From: an uncultured Cellvibrio sp.
Lineage (GTDB): Bacteria > Pseudomonadota > Gammaproteobacteria > Pseudomonadales > Cellvibrionaceae
Length of the DNA: 44,458 bases
NCBI GenBank assembly: GCA_946481095.1
Contig: CAMLML010000033.1
Span: forward strand, 1 to 44,458
Direction of reading: 5' to 3'
In this document: one piece after another, positions 37,166 to 44,458 of the stretch
Layout: every line of letters begins with the position of its first letter
Position numbering within the stretch: the stretch's first letter is position 1
Position numbers and translations under genes: made by a program
Notes under the pieces: generated by a model
Told to the model about the DNA's origin: nothing
Database searches by the model: none
What the model saw: the letters and a program-made list of their open reading frames with translations, nothing else

Positions 37166-37545
37166 TATTAATTTATCGAGCCTTAAGCTTATGAGTAGGC
37201 ACACACCCTGTGACCTACTTGTAAGTATCGGAGTGTTTCGGGCGTTTGATTATCGCGTGTGGACAGAAATGACCGTTTCTAAAAAATAAAAATACTAATT
37301 GATCCAGATTTTATTTAAATGATCTACGCATTTTATTTTCTGAATTTACTGTCAAGAGCATTATTACGGTATTTCATTAAATTACCATCGATGCGGACTC
37401 ATTTTGTATTGTGAGAATATGCTTTGAATCGTAGCTGGTACAGCTTTTGCCCTCTGTGAATGCCCATGCAAGTTAAATTTTATTTTTAATGATTAATAAC
37501 CTTGATATTTGATTGCCTTAACGGGCTTAACAATTGGAGAAATTA
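37166..37545. other. Intergenic region before the alpha/beta hydrolase
   Basis: 380 AT-rich bases with no supported gene; a 75-codon frame running through 37062-37289 overlaps the AraC gene and has no ribosome site. No clear repeat or terminator is seen. Confidence 0.5.
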
Positions 37546-38973
37546 ATGAGCACATTCACAATATGTTATTCAGGCACGGATTGTTATTTGGATCAATCTT
37601 TGGTGATGCGAAAACCGGAAGAGATGTATTCTTATAATGCAGTGTCGGGATATATTCCCAGCAAAATAAATAAACTGATTGCCAACGCAAATCCCGCTCA
37701 AACATCCAGTGTCACTATGAATGGTTGCGGTGGTCCTTATGCAATCGATAGCCAATCACTTCCTGTGAGATTGTGGTCTATTGAACAGGATCCTGATCTG
37801 GAAAGTACCGATACCTGGGTGCGATGCAGTTTGCCTCCCAAATTCTGGACTGATTCGATAAGTGGATCTTCTTTGGAAATTATCACCATTGCAGGTTTGG
37901 CCCGTATGTTGGGCGTGACTTTGCATTTGGTTAAAACGGGAAATTTGGAAGAGTTGTTGGCAGATAATTGGTATCCACAATATTTAATGGGCTACACAAA
38001 AGAGAGTATCGCTTATCCTTTGGGTGATGACGGCATGTGGAATAATTGTCTGCAAGCAACGGCGGGAAATTATTGTTTGCGTTGGAGCAAATCGGATGAT
38101 GAGATGATTAAAAAATTTCAGGAAGAATTTAAAAAAGTTGTGCTGCTTGGGCATAGTCGCGGTGGTGTTTCTTGCATTATTGCAGCCAATTATTTGGCAG
38201 AATGGTTTGGTAACCTGGAAATAAAAGTGTGTACATTGGATCCTGTGCCCGGTACAGGTGAATGGTGGCCTGTGTTAACAAACTTGCCTGGAAAAAAAAC
38301 GCTGGAATATGTTGGTATTTATGCAATTGATGAAACATCGGGTGGATTTAATGGTGTTGTGCCCAGAGTGAAGTTGCTTGTGAATGAGGGTCTTGAAGCG
38401 TGGGATCCATTATCAACACACAATGGCAATATTTCGGCGGCGGATTGGAAAACCACAAGCTATGAACTTTTATACACTCGGGGTCGTCATGCCACTGTGC
38501 CAGGCTCACGCAGTGCGCAAGGTAATGGCGAAACTGATCCTGTTGATAATAATGTGGGGGCCAGTGGTAATTTGGCTAATGCCTATGTTGTTTCCAAGTT
38601 AATTGGTTGGGGCGTAACTTTAAAAGCTATAGAGAAAAGTGACATATCACTTTGGATCACCATGATGAATAGTCATTCGGCACATTTTGCAAAAATGCGT
38701 GATAGTAATTATGGCCCCGTTAAAATTCTTGGAAAGATGAATGGCTGGTGGTACTACAACGCACGAGGAATTTCCTCGGCCAGTGGTGCAAATCCCTACA
38801 GTTGGATGTATCTGGAAGCTTTTATAAAAATTGCGGAAGGCAGCAATACCGAGGAAATTAATACCCGTCGAGGATTAATTAATATGGGTGTCAGGGAAAA
38901 GTATTATCAAAAATATGCGGGTACAGGAAAAGTGCATAACTGGGTGTATTTGGGAGAGGCCTTTTCGCAATAA
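37546..38973 (+). CDS. Lipase-like alpha/beta hydrolase, possible effector
   Basis: 475 residues with no signal peptide. The nucleophile elbow is VVLLGHSRGGVSCIIAANYLA (Ser204 in GHSRG). A likely acid lies in TLDPVPG (Asp232) and a likely histidine in TRGRHATVPG (His315), giving a Ser-Asp-His triad in the expected order. HSRG followed by an LDPV strand recalls the lipase class to which some secreted phospholipase effectors (DUF2235/Tle-like) belong, but I cannot assign a specific family. ATG at 37546 with GGAGA 5 bases upstream is preferred to an in-frame TTG at 37534. It is convergent with a small exported protein gene and lies next to the R-body locus. Confidence 0.7.
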   Translation: MSTFTICYSGTDCYLDQSLVMRKPEEMYSYNAVSGYIPSKINKLIANANPAQTSSVTMNGCGGPYAIDSQSLPVRLWSIEQDPDLESTDTWVRCSLPPKFWTDSISGSSLEIITIAGLARMLGVTLHLVKTGNLEELLADNWYPQYLMGYTKESIAYPLGDDGMWNNCLQATAGNYCLRWSKSDDEMIKKFQEEFKKVVLLGHSRGGVSCIIAANYLAEWFGNLEIKVCTLDPVPGTGEWWPVLTNLPGKKTLEYVGIYAIDETSGGFNGVVPRVKLLVNEGLEAWDPLSTHNGNISAADWKTTSYELLYTRGRHATVPGSRSAQGNGETDPVDNNVGASGNLANAYVVSKLIGWGVTLKAIEKSDISLWITMMNSHSAHFAKMRDSNYGPVKILGKMNGWWYYNARGISSASGANPYSWMYLEAFIKIAEGSNTEEINTRRGLINMGVREKYYQKYAGTGKVHNWVYLGEAFSQ

Positions 38974-39026: not shown

Positions 39027-39470
39027 TTATTTGCATTGTTGTTTTGTCATGGAAACTTTGTGTAATTTGCTTACGATATCATCGTAGTCGGGTACGTTGG
39101 GGTCACCGGCAATAGTCATTGCATTGATCAGATTATCAACCGCCATCAAGTGACCTTCCTCGCTGCTGATAAATCGTTGTTGGGCTGATTTTGTTGCTCC
39201 CCATATTCCATTGCACACATACGCTTTCCTGAAAATAGTTAATACAGCAATTCGTGCTTTAAGTGTTTTGGCTCGTTCGTTCCGGTTGGCTGGTGCATGG
39301 TTGATTTTTGCATATTCAGTTGCGCATTTCTTTCCGAGAATAGGATAAGCATCCTGAATCCCTTCGCATGATGCAATCGTGGCCGGTGGTGCAGCCAGTG
39401 CAGTTGTTGGTAGCAGAAGAATTGCCAGTAGGAAATAAATTGATAGAGTGATGTGTTTTGGCATAATCAT
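39027..39470 (-). CDS. Small exported protein with four cysteines
   Basis: 147 residues. A clear signal peptide (ITLSIYFLLAILLLPTTALA, cleavage before APPAT) leaves a mature protein of about 120 residues with four cysteines (in ASCEG, KKCAT, YVCNG and the C-terminal QQCK), probably two disulfides. The rest is helical and basic. ATG at 39470 follows AAAGGA by 7 bases. I recognise no family. It faces a lipase-like hydrolase gene. A cognate periplasmic inhibitor is one possibility, though such pairs are normally co-directional, so this is weak. Confidence 0.65.
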   Translation of the reverse strand: MIMPKHITLSIYFLLAILLLPTTALAAPPATIASCEGIQDAYPILGKKCATEYAKINHAPANRNERAKTLKARIAVLTIFRKAYVCNGIWGATKSAQQRFISSEEGHLMAVDNLINAMTIAGDPNVPDYDDIVSKLHKVSMTKQQCK

Positions 39471-39740
39471 AATTTTATCCTTTGGATAGTTAATTGAATA
39501 ATGGGTGTATTTTTTAATGCAGTGTCAATCTTTATATCGGATATCAATTATTCAGATTGACAGATTGTTGATTGCAATCGATGTACCAATAAGATAATTT
39601 TTGTTTTGCAATTTAATTAACTGATTTCGTTAATTATTTTTTAAAATAATTTTGGTTTTATATCTTTGGTGGACAAATTATTCCGAATCTATTTCGGGTG
39701 TGGATAATAATGTCCTATTAAAAATCTGTAGAGAATGATG

Positions 39741-39983
39741 ATGAAAATAAGTGCGCACAATTACCAATCAATTAACGCCAAAATTGATCCAGCCAAGTGG
39801 GTGATGTTTGATTGGTACAATGGTGTTTTAAATGCGGATGCAAAAATTATTACCCACAACCTTAATGTGGCGACATCCTTGAATAATCAACAGGAAAAAC
39901 TTTCTGGTCTAAGTGATTCTAATAAAACAGCTCAATTGGGGATGGCGGAAGAGTTGAAGCGTATTATGGGAGCGCTGAATTAA
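39741..39983 (+). CDS. Small helical protein beside the R-body locus
   Basis: About 80 residues (MKISAHNYQSINAKIDPAKW... KTAQLGMAEELKRIMGALN), with no signal peptide and no recognised family. The second half is Asn/Gln/Ala-rich and probably helical, in keeping with neighbouring reb-type genes. Three in-frame ATGs (39735, 39738, 39741) follow GTAGAGA; the last has the best spacing. It runs against the direction of the other cluster genes and its stop overlaps the acetyltransferase stop by 4 bases. An AATGTCCTAT motif shared with the reb promoter region lies about 25 bases upstream. Confidence 0.5.
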   Translation: MKISAHNYQSINAKIDPAKWVMFDWYNGVLNADAKIITHNLNVATSLNNQQEKLSGLSDSNKTAQLGMAEELKRIMGALN

Positions 39984-40501
39984 ATCGTCAGCGCCAGATA
40001 ATATTGCATCTGGTCGTTATGCAACAAGGTTTTGTCATCACAACAAAATCCCAAGCTTTCAAGTAAGTATTCAGAGCGGGTGTTGCCTGGATATATCTCG
40101 GCAGTAACACGCTGCACATTGATTTTTTTCAGTTTTTGTAACAATAGTTGAATCGCTTGCCTGGCGTAGCCCTGATTTTGATATCGTTTTGCTATCCAAT
40201 AGCCAATAACAACATCAAGTTGTTTTCCCTTGATTACGCCAAAACTGACAACGCCAATAAAACCAAATGCTCGATGTGTGATGGCATAGCGCACAGGTTG
40301 AGTACTGTTGTAGTCGTAAACATATTGAATTGCCTGAGATAAATTTTGGCAGGGTTCGCGTCCAAGATACTGACAGATATCCTGATCCATCAGTTGCAAA
40401 ATTTTATTGGCGTGAAAATGTTGCAGAGTTTCCAGATCGATTAATAACGATGGTTTTTTATGATGTGCACCGCGGGTATTCAGCGTTATAGAGTTATGCA
40501 T
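39980..40501 (-). CDS. GNAT-family N-acetyltransferase in the R-body cluster
   Basis: 173 residues of the RimJ/RimL-like GNAT type: IGYWIAKRYQNQGYARQAIQLLLQKLKKI contains the acetyl-CoA pyrophosphate-binding motif (Q/RxxGxA), and AEIYPGNTRSEYLLESLGF is the usual following strand-helix. It starts 15 bases after the preceding small gene of the cluster and so is probably its last co-transcribed member. The substrate is unknown; N-terminal or lysine acetylation of one of the small Reb-like proteins is a testable idea. Confidence 0.85.
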   Translation of the reverse strand: MHNSITLNTRGAHHKKPSLLIDLETLQHFHANKILQLMDQDICQYLGREPCQNLSQAIQYVYDYNSTQPVRYAITHRAFGFIGVVSFGVIKGKQLDVVIGYWIAKRYQNQGYARQAIQLLLQKLKKINVQRVTAEIYPGNTRSEYLLESLGFCCDDKTLLHNDQMQYYLALTI

Positions 40502-40516
40502 TTGTAGCGCTCATAT

Positions 40517-40840
40517 TTATTTATTTTTATCGGGATCGGTTGGAGTAAAAAGCATTTCAAGAAACCTGCCATATTTATTGAAAACCATTTGATCCTGATT
40601 GTCAGAATTGATTGCATTAATAAGAGGCAAATAAAATTGTTCACCTACCTGTGGGTTTGCTAGCCATTTTGCATAGGCATTGCCTACAGCAGTGTTTCTG
40701 ATAATGCCCTGGTTTCTTTGTTCTTCAATAACATTGAGTGCTTCAAAACTGACAGATTGCGCTACCCCCGCAGTGGCAGCGCTAAAATAAGTAAGTGCAT
40801 CAGAATTATCATCGGAATTTTTTTTATCGGACTGACTCAT
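40517..40840 (-). CDS. R-body-locus small protein with G-x-A-x-AKW motif (1)
   Basis: 107 residues (SDDNSDALTYFSAATAGVAQ...). It has a Ser/Asp-rich N-terminus, then an Ala-rich helical region with GNAYAKWLANP. The same pattern, G-x-A-x-A-K-W-[LV]-A-x-P, occurs as GVASAKWVAQP in the gene at 43721-44008, so the two are paralogues. Overall size and small-residue-rich helices resemble RebB relatives without matching them. GAGG precedes the ATG. Function unknown; structural or assembly role in R-bodies is inferred from position. Confidence 0.6.
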   Translation of the reverse strand: MSQSDKKNSDDNSDALTYFSAATAGVAQSVSFEALNVIEEQRNQGIIRNTAVGNAYAKWLANPQVGEQFYLPLINAINSDNQDQMVFNKYGRFLEMLFTPTDPDKNK

Positions 40841-40862
40841 ATTATCGCCTCAATACCAAGGG

Positions 40863-41147
40863 TTATTTTTTACTGCTGGAATTACTTTGCATTTTAACGA
40901 TAGAAAACCAATTGATGAGTGATTCTATGTCGTCAATAGAAATTGTGGCTTGCAGGCTTTGACTGGAATTATCAACCAGCATCGGAGGGATGCCTACTTG
41001 AATTGAAAAATTGACCTGGTTTTGAGTTTGGTTGTATTCAAAAGACCAGGTATTTTTTACATTTGCTGGCATACCGTTTATTGGATCAAAACTGCCAACA
41101 ATGGCATTGGATAAACTGGCTGCTGTAGTGGTTGTTGTGGTACCCAT
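40863..41147 (-). CDS. Unrecognised small protein of the R-body cluster
   Basis: 94 residues with a Thr-rich start (GTTTTTTAASLSNAIVGSF), a beta-rich middle (NTWSFEYNQTQNQVNFSIQVGIPPML) and a C-terminal helix (IDDIESLINWFSIVKM). No family recognised. GGAG lies 7 bases before the ATG. It is evenly spaced between other small genes of the same strand, suggesting one transcript. Similar beta-rich small proteins may line or cap helical polymers, but that is speculation. Confidence 0.6.
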   Translation of the reverse strand: MGTTTTTTAASLSNAIVGSFDPINGMPANVKNTWSFEYNQTQNQVNFSIQVGIPPMLVDNSSQSLQATISIDDIESLINWFSIVKMQSNSSSKK

Positions 41148-41182
41148 AACAAGACTCCAAATAATGAATTAATTTTTACAGA

Positions 41183-41392
41183 TTAACTGCGTAGTATTTT
41201 GTCACAGGTTGCAACCATGGCTGCGTTGGCCAGTGCCTGTGATGCGTATTGGTTTTGCGTGTTGTTCAACAGGGTGAGTGATTGTGCATTCACCAGACCA
41301 CCGAGAGAAAGTGTATGCAATGTGGTGTTGCTTTGTTGTTGAACTTCATCATTAATATTTTTTGCTGTTTTGATATAGTCATCAGGCGACAT
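41183..41392 (-). CDS. Small reb-like helical protein
   Basis: 69 residues. After a short charged start, the stretch LSLGGLVNAQSLTLLNNTQNQYASQALANAAMVATCDKIL is rich in Ala, Asn, Gln and small residues. It follows the pattern of the RebB core (two helices with an NQQ-like turn), although identity is low. GGAG precedes the ATG by 6 bases. A diverged RebB-related protein or an accessory protein is likely from context. Confidence 0.55.
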   Translation of the reverse strand: MSPDDYIKTAKNINDEVQQQSNTTLHTLSLGGLVNAQSLTLLNNTQNQYASQALANAAMVATCDKILRS

Positions 41393-41472
41393 ATTTTCTC
41401 CTCAATCTAATTAAAATTGCGATCGCACAAGCATAAAGAGCACCGACACATAACGCATCGGTACTCATTATG

Positions 41473-41703
41473 TTACTTATTGGCTTCAAACATTTTGGTG
41501 ATGCCAAGAGTTGTTGCAGCCTGATAAGTGACGTTGGCCTGTTGCTGTGCATAAACGGCGTTGGCAGCGGCCATGGCAACCGAGTTGCCGATAGTTTGAT
41601 ACAGACTGCCCATTGCCATGGCGGGTGCTTCTGCAAGAACTTTGGTGTTGGCGACAGTAATCGCATCAATTATCGCGCCATTTACAACTTGTGGTTGGCT
41701 CAT
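41473..41703 (-). CDS. rebB: RebB-family R-body protein, tandem copy 4 (transcript order)
   Basis: 76 residues: INDAITVANTK-type start, then EAPAMAMGSLYQTIGNSVAM, AANAVYAQQQANV and a C-terminal TLGITKMFEANK. This is the RebB / 'killing trait' core (PF11747 type) known from Caedibacter R-bodies and related loci. R-bodies are coiled protein ribbons in the cytoplasm that can extend abruptly and rupture membranes. GGAG precedes the ATG by 6 bases. It differs from its three upstream paralogues mainly at both ends. Confidence 0.85.
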   Translation of the reverse strand: MSQPQVVNGAIIDAITVANTKVLAEAPAMAMGSLYQTIGNSVAMAAANAVYAQQQANVTYQAATTLGITKMFEANK

Positions 41704-41736
41704 AGTTTTCTCCGATCATCAATTTAAAAAACTAAA

Positions 41737-41994
41737 TTAATTATTTTGTGAAAATAATTTCGTAATACCCAGCGTACTTGCTGCTTGATAGGTTACGTTG
41801 GCTTGTTGTTGCGCATAAACGGCGTTTGCAGCAGCCATAGCAACGGAGTTGCCGATGGTTTGATACAAACTACCCATTGCCATAGCAGGCGCTTCAGCCA
41901 GAACTTTGGTGTTGGTAGCTGTAATCGAATCAATGATTGCTGCATTTACAGTTTGCGGTTGGCTTGATTGATTTTTACTTGATGGTTGGCTCAT
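41737..41994 (-). CDS. rebB: RebB-family R-body protein, tandem copy 3
   Basis: 85 residues, with a nine-residue longer N-terminus (SSKNQSSQPQTVN) than the other copies and then the shared core AIIDSITATNTK, EAPAMAMGSLYQTIGNSVAM, AQQQANVTYQAASTLGITKLFSQNN. The coding DNA is identical to copy 2 over 77 bases (41813-41889 against 42103-42179), evidence of recent duplication or gene conversion. GGAG precedes the ATG. Confidence 0.88.
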   Translation of the reverse strand: MSQPSSKNQSSQPQTVNAAIIDSITATNTKVLAEAPAMAMGSLYQTIGNSVAMAAANAVYAQQQANVTYQAASTLGITKLFSQNN

Positions 41995-42026
41995 AAGTTA
42001 CTCCGATTAAAATAATGTAAAAATAA

Positions 42027-42257
42027 TTAATTGTTTTGTGAAAACATTTTTGTGATGCCGAGCGTACTTGCGGCTTGATAAGTCACATTGGCTTGTTGTT
42101 GTGCATAAACGGCGTTTGCAGCAGCCATAGCAACGGAGTTGCCGATGGTTTGATACAAACTACCCATTGCCATAGCAGGTGCTTCAGCCAGAACTTTGGT
42201 ATTGGTCGCTGTAATAGCATCAATGACTGCACCATTTACGCCTGTAGGTTGTGACAT
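42027..42257 (-). CDS. rebB: RebB-family R-body protein, tandem copy 2
   Basis: 76 residues: SQPTGVNGAVIDAITATNTK, EAPAMAMGSLYQTIGNSVAM, AQQQANVTYQAASTLGITKMFSQNN. Closest to copy 3, with which it shares a 77-base identical stretch. GGAG before the ATG. As with the other copies, there is no signal peptide, so the product is cytoplasmic, where R-bodies assemble. Confidence 0.88.
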   Translation of the reverse strand: MSQPTGVNGAVIDAITATNTKVLAEAPAMAMGSLYQTIGNSVAMAAANAVYAQQQANVTYQAASTLGITKMFSQNN

Positions 42258-42299
42258 GATAATTCTCCTCTAGAAATTAATTATGAATTGGCTGAGTGA

Positions 42300-42530
42300 T
42301 TATTGATTGCTGGAAAACAGTTTGGTGACACCCAGTGTGCTGGCAGCCTGGAATGACACGTTGGCTTGTTGTTGTGCGTAGACGGCGTTGGCAGCGGCCA
42401 TAGCAACAGAATTACCTACGGTTTGATACAAACTACCCATAGCCATGGCGGGCGCTTCAGCCAGAACTTTGGTATTGGTTGCGGTGATTGCATCGATTAC
42501 TGCGCCATTTACAACTGTTGGTTGTGACAT
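42300..42530 (-). CDS. rebB: RebB-family R-body protein, tandem copy 1 (first of block)
   Basis: 76 residues: VVNGAVIDAITATNTK, EAPAMAMGSLYQTVGNSVAM, AQQQANVSFQAASTLGVTKLFSSNQ. It is first in the tandem block, preceded by GGAG and a 260-base AT-rich gap that is the likely promoter. It differs from the others by several conservative changes (IGN to VGN, TY to SF), suggesting subunits with slightly different polymer contacts. Confidence 0.88.
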   Translation of the reverse strand: MSQPTVVNGAVIDAITATNTKVLAEAPAMAMGSLYQTVGNSVAMAAANAVYAQQQANVSFQAASTLGVTKLFSSNQ

Positions 42531-42790
42531 AAAATTACTCCAATTAAATTTAATGAATAACAGATCAGGATTTAAATCAGTTTTATCGTAATCTGTGTTT
42601 TAGCTTTGCCAAAATAATATTGATATTTTGGTTGCCCAAATCCATGTTTGCATCACTTATGCCAAGCTGGTATTAACTTAATTAACATATTGTTTTTAAT
42701 GAAAATTAAATTTAATTAATTTTTTATTTACAAAATGCTATGGGATACAAATGTCCTTTTGTGTTTTCGTATAGGACATTTTCATCCAAC
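42531..42790 (-). promoter_or_regulatory. Probable promoter region of the rebB block
   Basis: 260 AT-rich bases upstream of the first rebB. Two dyads are visible: CCAAAATA (42609-42616) with TATTTTGG (42624-42631), and AAATGTCCT (42749-42757) with AGGACATTT (42773-42781). The second may instead end the upstream 201-codon gene, but on the minus strand it lacks a T-run. The base of its right arm reads AATGTCCTAT on the minus strand, also present at 39708-39717 before the + strand small gene. Confidence 0.45.
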
Positions 42791-43393
42791 TCATGTGTGA
42801 TTAATCAATCGAATCATGTCGAATTGGTCGAATCCTTTAATAATGGTATTTTCATTTCCCTGATTGTTTATTAAAGAATAGTCTGCTTTTAAGAAAAAAT
42901 TGGCGAGTGCCGGATTTAACAGGGTTGCAGATATTTTTTGAGCGCCATGTCGCTTTGCAAATTGATTAACTTTGTTAAGCGTACGCATGATGCAGATTTC
43001 GTATTTTCTTTGAAAATGCTGAAACCAATCGTTTTTAAATGCGCCAATGGTTGGTTTGGCAGGCAATAATTGAAGGTATAAGAGTTCAAGGTTATGTTGG
43101 TACAAAGAAAATATTGCCTGAGAAAATGTTTTATTTTCAAATTTGAGGCGTTGTTGCATCAGGTAATAGTGATTTGGTATTACAGAACCGGGTTGTGGTT
43201 GATGCCAATATATCTCTATGTCTTTTGGTAGTTGCCAAAAGATAGCTGGAAAGTTCTGTCTTATCTCATCAGAATCCACCTTGATGTCACTGATTAACTC
43301 TATGCCAAAAAAACACTGCAAGAATTTTTTTGGCAATATTAATTCAGTATTGCCAATATCAGATGTTATGGGTGGTGTTGGATGAGTTGTCAT
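42791..43393 (-). CDS. Unrecognised protein of the R-body cluster, C-terminus acetyltransferase-like
   Basis: About 200 residues from the ATG at 43393; longer starts (43429, 43459) would overlap the preceding gene by 71-101 bases, this one by 35. No start has a clear ribosome site, so coupling to the upstream gene is likely. The middle is rich in aromatic residues (IFWQLPKDIEIYWHQPQPGS, HNLELLYLQLLPAKP). The end (VNQFAKRHGAQKISATLLNPALANFFLKADYSLI) resembles the last strand-helix-strand of a GNAT acetyltransferase, but no acetyl-CoA motif is visible. Function unknown. Confidence 0.55.
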   Translation of the reverse strand: MTTHPTPPITSDIGNTELILPKKFLQCFFGIELISDIKVDSDEIRQNFPAIFWQLPKDIEIYWHQPQPGSVIPNHYYLMQQRLKFENKTFSQAIFSLYQHNLELLYLQLLPAKPTIGAFKNDWFQHFQRKYEICIMRTLNKVNQFAKRHGAQKISATLLNPALANFFLKADYSLINNQGNENTIIKGFDQFDMIRLINHT

Positions 43394-43676
43394 CAGACGT
43401 TGAATTGTCAGGGAAAACAGCCTGTTCATTTGACTTAAGCATGGTTTCCTGTGCGGCATAGAGCTGATTGATGTTTTTCCATATCTGCTCCTGGGACGTG
43501 TAATCCTGCGGCATGGATTCTCCGGTAATTTCCATTGGAATATTCAAGGCAACGCCATGAAAATTTTCCATTTGGCAGGATGCCATGACTTCTTCCAATA
43601 TCTTTTTGGATAAATCCAAAAAAGCCTGGGAATTAGCCGCCATTGTTTCATTTGCGTCGTCGGTCATATTTTGCAC
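43359..43676 (-). CDS. Unrecognised acidic small protein of the R-body cluster
   Basis: 105 residues: TDDANETMAANSQAFLDLSKKILEEVMASCQ, then a Pro/Gly segment (GVALNIPMEITGESMPQDY), a helix (IWKNINQLYAAQETMLKSNEQAV) and a disordered Asp/Ser/Asn-rich tail. Acidic and probably mostly helical. AGGTG precedes the ATG at 43676. Its 3' end overlaps the start of the next gene. No family recognised. Confidence 0.6.
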   Translation of the reverse strand: MQNMTDDANETMAANSQAFLDLSKKILEEVMASCQMENFHGVALNIPMEITGESMPQDYTSQEQIWKNINQLYAAQETMLKSNEQAVFPDNSTSDDNSSNTTHNI

Positions 43677-43720
43677 CTGCTTAATCTGATTGTTTTGTTG
43701 CTAAAGTATTTTTCAACTAT

Positions 43721-44008
43721 TTAAGTTTGAAATTGTTTAAGTACTTTGGCAGCCGTTTCACCTACATTGGCCAGGTTGGTTACCGCAAAAGTTATATTTT
43801 TTTGTGCATTTTCAATAATTGTCTCGTAGACCACCAATTCAGGTTGAGCAACCCATTTTGCTGAAGCAACACCTATAACGGTTGTTTCTATAGTGCTGAT
43901 GTTTCGTAGTGTGTCTACAGCATCCTGCACTGCTTGTGCCATGGACTGCGCAATGCTGGCTTGTATGATATCGGCGGCACTTTGGCTGCTCTGATCACTC
44001 ATGATCAT
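43721..44008 (-). CDS. R-body-locus small protein with G-x-A-x-AKW motif (2)
   Basis: 95 residues: Ala/Gln-rich helix (SAADIIQASIAQSMAQAVQDAV), then TVIGVASAKWVAQPELVVYETII and a final helix (NITFAVTNLANVGETAAKVLKQF). Shares the G-x-A-x-AKW-x-A-x-P pattern with the gene at 40517-40840. Two ATGs (44008, 44002) are possible; the ribosome site is weak. Perhaps a structural or assembly protein; a distant relative of RebB cannot be excluded. Confidence 0.6.
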   Translation of the reverse strand: MIMSDQSSQSAADIIQASIAQSMAQAVQDAVDTLRNISTIETTVIGVASAKWVAQPELVVYETIIENAQKNITFAVTNLANVGETAAKVLKQFQT

Positions 44009-44023
44009 CTAGTCTCTTATGGG

Positions 44024-44392
44024 TTATGGCACTTTTATGTTCTGTTTTATATGAGCTTCCAAATATGTGACTAGCAATTCAAGTCGCTCATCCGATGTTT
44101 TTGCTTCAATAAAGATAATGTCACTGAGCTTTTCAATATAGTCCTGATTTTGTAAGAGTATTGAAAGCATATCCAGGAGGGTTGAATTTTCATTAATAGG
44201 TATGTTGCTGATTACCCCATCGGAAAAATTTTTTAATATTTGCTCTATAATATTTTCGTCGTCATTTTTATACCCCGACGCTGATTTTTTCAGTATCACT
44301 GATTGGTTAATATAATTCTCAAATTTTTGTAGATCTTGTTTTTGTGCTATTTGAGTTTTTTTTATCAGGTCTGATAATTCCAGTTTATTCAT
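44024..44392 (-). CDS. Unrecognised helical small protein at the start of the visible R-body cluster
   Basis: 122 residues (MNKLELSDLIKKTQIAQKQDLQKFENYINQ ... SDERLELLVTYLEAHIKQNIKVP), acidic and almost entirely helical by composition, with no signal peptide and no recognised family. It lies 15 bases upstream of the next gene, so they probably share a transcript. Upstream of it only 66 bases of AT-rich sequence remain before the window ends; further cluster genes, such as a sigma factor or regulator, may lie beyond. Confidence 0.6.
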   Translation of the reverse strand: MNKLELSDLIKKTQIAQKQDLQKFENYINQSVILKKSASGYKNDDENIIEQILKNFSDGVISNIPINENSTLLDMLSILLQNQDYIEKLSDIIFIEAKTSDERLELLVTYLEAHIKQNIKVP

Positions 44393-44458
44393 ATATCAAT
44401 CGGGCTAATCAAAATTTCAATTTGTTTAATATCATATTTTGTATATCAATCATTTCCT

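Follow-up and report, generated by a model that had tools for sequence, protein, structure and literature searches.

A putative sigma-54-controlled class of R-body loci, as seen in a contig of an uncultured Cellvibrio sp.

R-bodies are coiled, springing protein ribbons carried by some bacteria against microscopic predators and hosts. A locus at one end of a 44,458-nucleotide stretch of DNA from an uncultured Cellvibrio sp. (contig CAMLML010000033.1; this whole stretch is called the window below) raises the question of which kind of R-body system it encodes and how that system is switched on. Eleven short genes on the minus strand span positions 44392-40517, four consecutive ones encode RebB proteins, and the cluster is a genuine R-body (reb) gene cluster. 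With a probability of roughly three in four, it represents a distinct class of R-body locus that is controlled by sigma-54. Such a class of reb loci seems to be undescribed so far, and the locus is distinguished above all by what looks like control through sigma-54 and a common upstream element. A preliminary description of the region had read it as a RebB locus of a variant kind, with companions that would accompany rebB elsewhere; this much stands, while the sigma-54 control, which lies partly beyond the stretch it dealt with, had escaped it.

RebB proteins and their recurrent partners

The four adjacent genes, described earlier as sharing a RebB core, all match PF11747 in a profile search, where they score 79-85 bits and the gathering threshold is 24. 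They are, on the minus strand like the remainder of the operon, rebB1 (42300..42530, 76 amino acids (aa), E 2.8e-22), rebB2 (42027..42257, 76 aa, E 1.1e-22), rebB3 (41737..41994, 85 aa, E 2.7e-23) and rebB4 (41473..41703, 76 aa, E 5.2e-24), the last three being 89, 86 and 83% identical to rebB1. Of the signatures given in the available parts of a 2026 survey (PMC13430693), the KxxxD/E plus proline signature (as KVLAEAP), NAV and QQQ are present in all four. The QITD motif between two prolines, a characteristic Reb signature according to the same excerpts, is absent, the window proteins reading DAITATN, DSITATN or DAITVAN without a preceding proline. The missing signature could mean that the four RebB serve a role other than in R-bodies, for instance as another membrane-active or storage polymer that forms no coiled ribbon. 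Ribbons are, moreover, only predicted here from the genes, which counts against our own reading as well. Nevertheless, the KxxxE plus proline, NAV and QQQ signatures are kept in all four intact copies and partners of HP1.2-like and short Reb-like type (see below) are retained beside them, and we regard a role outside R-bodies as quite improbable.

A Shine-Dalgarno-like stretch was seen by eye within 20 bases upstream of eight of the eleven genes and is not clear for g1, g2 and g4. Only 66 bases lie between g1 and the window edge at 44458, and since the gene set runs off the window there, the locus is incomplete in view. The remaining window resembles pectin-degradation genes (translations read, no family search), in agreement with the earlier view of the organism as a plant-polymer degrader. 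A phage origin of the locus was considered and rejected, as rebB1 lacks any match among 50,697 phage records.

For comparison, genome contigs were scanned with a RebB alignment and two peptide patterns; of 105 stretches confirmed, the 80 best were retained and gave 75 reb loci (cited by L numbers), which are a sample and no census. The four rebB genes of the window are accompanied by seven small genes, g1 to g4 ahead of them and g9 to g11 behind, none of which reaches a Pfam or NCBIfam cut-off. At least five unrecognised partners had been reported earlier. Seven are counted, and "unrecognised" holds for g1, g3, g4 and g10, none of which could be named, but is too strong for g2 and g11, which are HP1.2-like, and for g9, a probable distant Reb. 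Sequence searches find six of the seven (g2, g3, g4, g9, g10 and g11) beside rebB again in ten of the 75 loci, among them four from Shewanella and two from Rheinheimera, and for this reason the partner set is not a product of chance. A locus of this kind is also present in Idiomarina xiamenensis. Whether the companions occur with rebB in other genomes had been fixed beforehand as a test, and iterated profiles place g3 in 10, g4 in 9, g10 in 10 and g2 in 42 of the 75 loci. As far as simple gene calling shows, the partners stand in order in six of the ten loci (L001 and L006-L010) and are split over two consecutive sets in the four Shewanella loci. The six begin with an activator, a ~150-aa gene, a ~110-aa gene, a ~122-aa gene in the place of g1, and g2; after g2 they continue, usually with a Reb-like gene, then g3, g4, two to four rebB, g9, g10 and g11. 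The window keeps the order g1-g2-g3-g4-rebB-g9-g10-g11 of these gamma-proteobacterial members.

The first operon gene in the window, g1 (44024..44392, 122 aa), takes the place of a ~120-aa gene in related loci. Aligned with the gene in the same place in nine of these it shows 15-23% identity and six invariant columns; phmmer found no match in the 75 loci, so that its homology, indicated by position and a weak alignment only, is weakly supported. An HP1.2-like or distant Reb-related protein is encoded by g2 (43721..44008, 95 aa), which is 52-59% identical to its counterparts in seven aligned related loci and has phmmer matches in 34 of the 75. It matches a 116-aa protein adjoining rebB on an Azospirillum brasilense plasmid (L103), and its relatives occur in 11 of 72,556 plasmid records, none of them covering 80% of g2. 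Related to g2 is g11 (40517..40840, 107 aa; blastp 3e-8, profile-profile probability 98.9 with E 2.9e-17), found in 13 loci by single-sequence search and in 34 by iterated profile. The short g9 (41183..41392, 69 aa) has phmmer matches in ten loci, located after the rebB array, and is probably a distant Reb homologue. Both g9 and g2 join Reb only by iterated search, in which drift is possible and in which the profiles of g2, g9, g11 and RebB partly run into one another; g2 is additionally joined via the HP1.2-like protein of A. brasilense. Direct profile-profile comparison of g9 and g2 with Reb gave no significant match. A conserved partner of unknown fold, g3 (43359..43667, 102 aa) is found in five loci by single-sequence search and in ten by iterated profile, in all ten directly ahead of g4. 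Finally, g10 (40863..41147, 94 aa), which phmmer and the iterated profile both find in ten loci, is modelled as four strands and a helix (predicted local distance difference test, pLDDT, 74); a fold search with this model returned nothing at E 0.001 or less, the best match being a Whirly protein (E 0.078).

A sigma-54 activator and its candidate promoters

The gene set of L001 opens with a sigma-54 activator of 325 aa that carries a Fis-type helix-turn-helix (HTH); its PF00158 domain is matched at E 1.1e-64, and the E values of the two activators scanned were 1.1e-64 and 7.7e-65. In 15 of the 75 loci a relative of this activator is encoded no more than 2.5 kb from reb, namely in L001-L010, two Desulfoluna loci and three loci from metagenome-assembled genomes, one labelled Planctomycetota, one from Nannocystaceae and one labelled Deltaproteobacteria (L011 and L012, with the activator 7.9 kb off in both, are counted as lacking a linked one). 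Judged by record labels, the class thus spans Gammaproteobacteria, Desulfoluna, Nannocystaceae, Deltaproteobacteria and Planctomycetota. The HTH stretch GVHRKVxERR is common to eleven aligned linked activators. Nine activator-linked genomes contain one activator each at 486-543 bits and all other matches in 21 reb genomes reach at most 330, the nine being rows of the search model, so that their scores are partly set by construction. The window's own activator would, by analogy, be encoded just past the window edge.

In L001 and L006-L010, reb genes and a GNAT gene are preceded by good sigma-54 sites, scored with weights from a consensus. A palindrome upstream of these sites was first noticed by eye, with the window regions among those inspected, and a de novo search of 14 regions from the six loci, with the window held out, returned TGG-N10-CCA at a log-likelihood of 58 versus at most 29 in 15 shuffles. 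Under a single wide rule for all 75 loci, the composite of site and palindrome at a reb or reb-like gene is 19.1-24.8 in 11 of the 15 loci with a linked activator; it never exceeds 15.3 in the 60 others, and in this sense promoter and palindrome are tied to the activator. As their 14 promoters trained the palindrome, L001 and L006-L010 are not independent. Among the nine untrained activator-linked loci, the five outside Shewanella (two Desulfoluna and those labelled Planctomycetota, Nannocystaceae and Deltaproteobacteria) pass and the four Shewanella loci fail. Under a narrower rule, with the site within 250 bases of the start, 8 of the 15 score at least 19.5 and the best of the 60 others 14.7; this rule failed in L021 owing to the start codon tried, and in L029 and L034 because ~0.7 kb separate the site from the first reb gene.

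In the window, a sigma-54-type promoter TTGGCATAAGTGATGCA (42649..42665, minus strand; 22.0 of 25.5) precedes rebB1, with a palindrome of the TGG-N10-CCA type upstream of it at 42773..42788 (11.2 bits, the fourth best in the window, which was held out from training). A second promoter of this type, TTGGTACATCGATTGCA (39573..39589, minus strand; 21.5 of 25.5), stands before a gene named g14, with upstream palindromes at 39701..39716 and 39670-39685 (10.3 and 9.3 bits, ninth and 13th best), and a third, CTGGTACAGCTTTTGCC (37435..37451, plus strand; 21.5 of 25.5), before g15, with the palindrome TGGACAGAAATGACCG at 37260..37275 (12.3 bits, third best). Among the 47 window open reading frames with a candidate site, g15 (17.0), rebB1 (16.6) and g14 (15.0) rank first, second and third by composite, the fourth reaching 8.7, with the window held out throughout; a value of 14.9 is reached by 0.2% of 3000 random window starts, true promoters included. 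As the top three composites fall at g15, rebB1 and g14, the reb operon and these two genes appear to share one sigma-54 switch.

Several points weigh against placing the window in a sigma-54-controlled class. The activator gene is absent from the window, its expected position being beyond 44458. The 16-base palindromic form was picked after the regions had been viewed, those of the window included, as training alone excluded the window; and the composite cut-off of 17 applied to the 75 loci was fixed once scores had been seen, the rebB1 composite falling just below it. Sigma-54 sites alone are common, 42 scoring at least 20 in the window and two of these beating that of rebB1. The four Shewanella loci have the activator, yet their composite at reb is 1.3-8.7, and the only genes seen there with the pair of site and palindrome in front are an AAA gene (L004, L005) and a GNAT gene (L092). 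The ~0.7 kb between site and first reb gene in L029 and L034 is a further such point, as is the finding that in L001 and L009 the best site precedes a reb-like gene, with lower scores at the main rebB array. Composites of 17-19 also occur at seemingly meaningless places, e.g. within the activator gene of L021, at 8885 (18.7), and at L018 19022-19543 (17.3). To these are added the modest confidence of the g4 model and the findings on relatives of g14 and g15 given with those genes below.

Relation to known R-body systems

In the terms of Raymann et al. 2013, g2 would be of the HP1.2 type and g9 a short Reb such as HP1.4, both being partner types that the paper had entered as hypothetical proteins. 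According to the available parts of that paper (PMC3583457), HP1.1, HP1.2, HP1.3 and HP1.4 surround reb in Group 1, and a sigma-factor gene, a cyclic-nucleotide regulator, HP2.1 and HP2.2 are syntenic in Group 2. In a Group 1 locus such as that of A. brasilense (L103), as in the window, the RebB array is followed by an HP1.2-sized relative of g2. It might be held to be an ordinary reb cluster of the Group 1 type in which lineage-specific fillers and incidental sigma-54 sites are found, and the likeness of g2 to the 116-aa protein adjoining rebB in A. brasilense, a Group 1 taxon, the likeness of g9 to a short Reb such as HP1.4 and the abundance of lone sigma-54-like sites all speak for this. 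However, the ~357-aa HP1.1-like neighbour in L103 lacks a relative in the 75 loci and among the window proteins, fillers would hardly be shared by ten loci from several families, with their order kept in six, and site plus palindrome are found in 11 of 15 activator-linked loci versus 0 of the 60 others. Nor is a sigma-54 activator mentioned for Group 1 in the available text (PMC3583457), or present among the annotated L103 neighbours. An ordinary Group 1 cluster is an unlikely explanation, and a distinct sigma-54-controlled class is the reading that we prefer.

The reb cluster of Pseudomonas aeruginosa PA14 (RebP1, RebP2, RebD, RapA; Wang et al. 2021, PMC8322103) likewise combines several RebB-family subunits with small partners. 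According to the excerpts of its description, a dedicated transcriptional switch lies inside that cluster and R-bodies are demonstrated; rebP1 expression requires the sigma factor FecI2 and RcgA, not sigma-54 as proposed here; and neither a GNAT nor relatives of g3, g4 and g10 are mentioned in them (PMC8322103). Azorhizobium caulinodans, like the window, has four reb genes per operon, there under tight control and regulated by PraR and RebR, the word "sigma" occurring 0 times in the text available (Matsuoka et al. 2017, PMC5527310). Together with the sigma factor and regulator of Group 2 (PMC3583457), FecI2 and RcgA (PMC8322103) and PraR and RebR (PMC5527310) are the R-body regulators published in the sources available. 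The rebABCD genes of Caedibacter taeniospiralis encode structural proteins of the RebB type as in the window, but are four genes on a plasmid, and the window's partners are unmentioned in the portions of the accounts available (PMC13430693, PMC8322103). Raymann et al., as far as their text was available, found Caedibacter plasmid proteins to lack relatives in other reb taxa, and did not decide if the conserved hypothetical partners act in regulation or as the toxin (PMC3583457). The 2026 survey sets non-Reb neighbours aside, with 0 mentions of Shewanella, Cellvibrio, promoter or acetyltransferase in the parts available (PMC13430693).

No paper linking R-bodies to sigma-54 was found among the matches listed in the open-licence literature, and a 2025 survey of the sigma-54 regulon never mentions R-body, RebB, killing trait or PF11747. 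Papers on Rhodospirillum centenum and Pseudomonas fluorescens Pf-5 were considered as prior art and set aside, since neither, in the portions available, ties sigma-54 to reb.

GNAT genes, co-regulated neighbours and a possible payload

Four partner families for which no name was found (g1, g3, g4 and g10) are added by the class, one of them with a probable GNAT fold. This is g4 (42791..43393, likely start 43393; 200 aa), matched in three loci by single-sequence search, in nine by iterated profile, and added in L010 by position and alignment; a 99%-identical g4 occurs in one cluster of contigs. Its listed fold matches are nearly all acetyltransferases, at low template-modelling (TM) scores and modest model confidence, and on this model g4 probably has a GNAT fold. 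In GNATs the acetyl-CoA loop motif (Q/R)xxGx(G/A) precedes a long helix; it is not found in g4 between strand 104-111 and helix 124-151. A canonical GNAT acetyltransferase is encoded directly after the operon by g12 (39980..40501, minus strand, 173 aa; Acetyltransf_3, E 2.7e-17), which shares 31% identity, across 151 residues, with a GNAT of 344 aa encoded upstream of the L007 reb operon. Because the RebB proteins start with MSQP and the best NCBIfam matches of g12, below cut-off, are ribosomal-protein N-terminal acetyltransferases, N-terminal acetylation of the RebB subunits is a fair guess.

Of the two genes that appear to share the switch, g14 (39027..39470, minus strand, 147 aa) is a payload candidate with an apparent signal peptide, as judged by eye, and has no Pfam match. 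For its 39 related proteins no link with reb was seen; an organism is named for seven of them, and these come from Ralstonia, Chitinolyticbacter, Burkholderiaceae, Massilia and Duganella, all beta-proteobacterial. The second candidate, g15 (37546..38973, plus strand, 475 aa), is alpha/beta-hydrolase-like. Its family comprises 36 listed proteins, g15 included, GHSRGG, D232 and GRHAT being invariant among ten aligned relatives; the match to Abhydrolase_6 is below cut-off (E 0.018). As a conserved reb partner g15 was rejected, since of 28 genomes with reb loci only 3 had a match, in each case a distant one. An 82-aa frame, g13 (39735-39983, plus strand), is convergent with the reb-GNAT operon and positioned like convergent genes elsewhere; a search of the frames of the 75 loci, among them the genes convergent with other reb operons, gave a best E of 6.8, and a relationship was dismissed.

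A sigma-54 regulon shared by reb, g14 and g15 need not mean that g14 and g15 work together with the ribbon; alternatively, another activator may read the palindrome. In favour of this, g15 relatives occur in 3 of 390 genomes of one order, beside the distant ones in reb genomes, no tie to reb was seen for the g14 relatives, and an activator gene is absent from the window. On the other hand, the palindrome was derived from promoters of reb and GNAT genes in loci with a linked activator, and it is found again at reb in five further genomes. We give this alternative a lesser but real chance, and it would leave the sigma-54 control of reb itself standing.

Under sigma-54 control of the kind preferred here, the locus might work as follows. 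On some signal, a dedicated activator with a Fis-type DNA-binding end and, by its length, no sensor domain in most gamma-proteobacterial loci would bind TGG-N10-CCA and fire the sigma-54 promoters ahead of rebB. The four RebB would be the ribbon subunits, with g9, g2 and g11 as minor or assembly parts, and g4 and g12 may bind or modify the RebB subunits. The activator would also switch on g14 and g15, to be released when the ribbon springs. It is tempting, if rather doubtful, to see R-bodies of this class as the delivery spring of a sigma-54-switched weapon, in which a ribbon, GNATs acetylating or capping RebB, and a genome-specific payload are placed under one activator, the payload being g15 and g14 here and, in L007 and L009, perhaps a protein of ~640 aa together with its small neighbour. 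If true, the TGG-N10-CCA regulon of each genome would reveal the long-sought R-body toxin. As the regulon can be read from site and palindrome, it yields a short list of suspects for each genome of the class, and makes testable the question of what the R-body payload is and when R-bodies are produced.

In related loci the regulon was listed as the top nine composites of at least 13.5 per locus. The pair precedes a ~340-aa GNAT gene in L001, L006, L007 and L008 (22.3-25.2, all four being training items), convergent genes after the operon in L007 (22.9), L010 (23.1), L006 (19.1) and L009 (15.5), and a 298-aa frame by the activator in L006 (18.4) and L008 (20.7). It is also found before a 204-aa frame in L010 (21.8), a 162-aa gene in L001 (18.3) and the L001 activator itself (16.3); some listed frames appear meaningless, with scores up to 18.7. 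These convergent genes, small, unknown and two to three in number, lie right behind the operon (L001 12396-13441, L006 11727-12967, L007 12001-13113). The ~640-aa proteins of L007 (3564-5480, 638 aa) and L009 (13733-15601) are close relatives (3.9e-155) with no Pfam match, although the two reb loci are distant from each other. Sigma-54-like sites of score 20 are found upstream of both genes; the palindrome is weak in L007 (composite 13.6) and in L009 absent from the top-nine list. The small gene adjoining each is a relative of the 162-aa protein of L001 (4815-5303).

Some genes close to the reb sets of Shewanella are also of interest: directly downstream in L002 (10934-11365) a protein with an eCIS_core domain (PF13699, E 2.4e-13) is encoded, nearby a class 3 lipase (E 6.4e-26) in L005 (14433-15503), and phage-lysozyme-like proteins in L005 (15648-16193) and L002 (2468-3049). 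These lysozyme-like proteins, the lipase and the eCIS_core protein are, together with the ~640-aa protein, leads to the payload and not proof of it, and the lipase and lysozyme-like proteins may instead serve in release. Genes of similar appearance occupy the eCIS_core place in L003-L005. The AAA ATPase gene that carries site and palindrome (473 aa; L004 18263-19684 and L005 16555-17976, composites 20.2 and 22.1) lies ~6-8 kb from the reb set.

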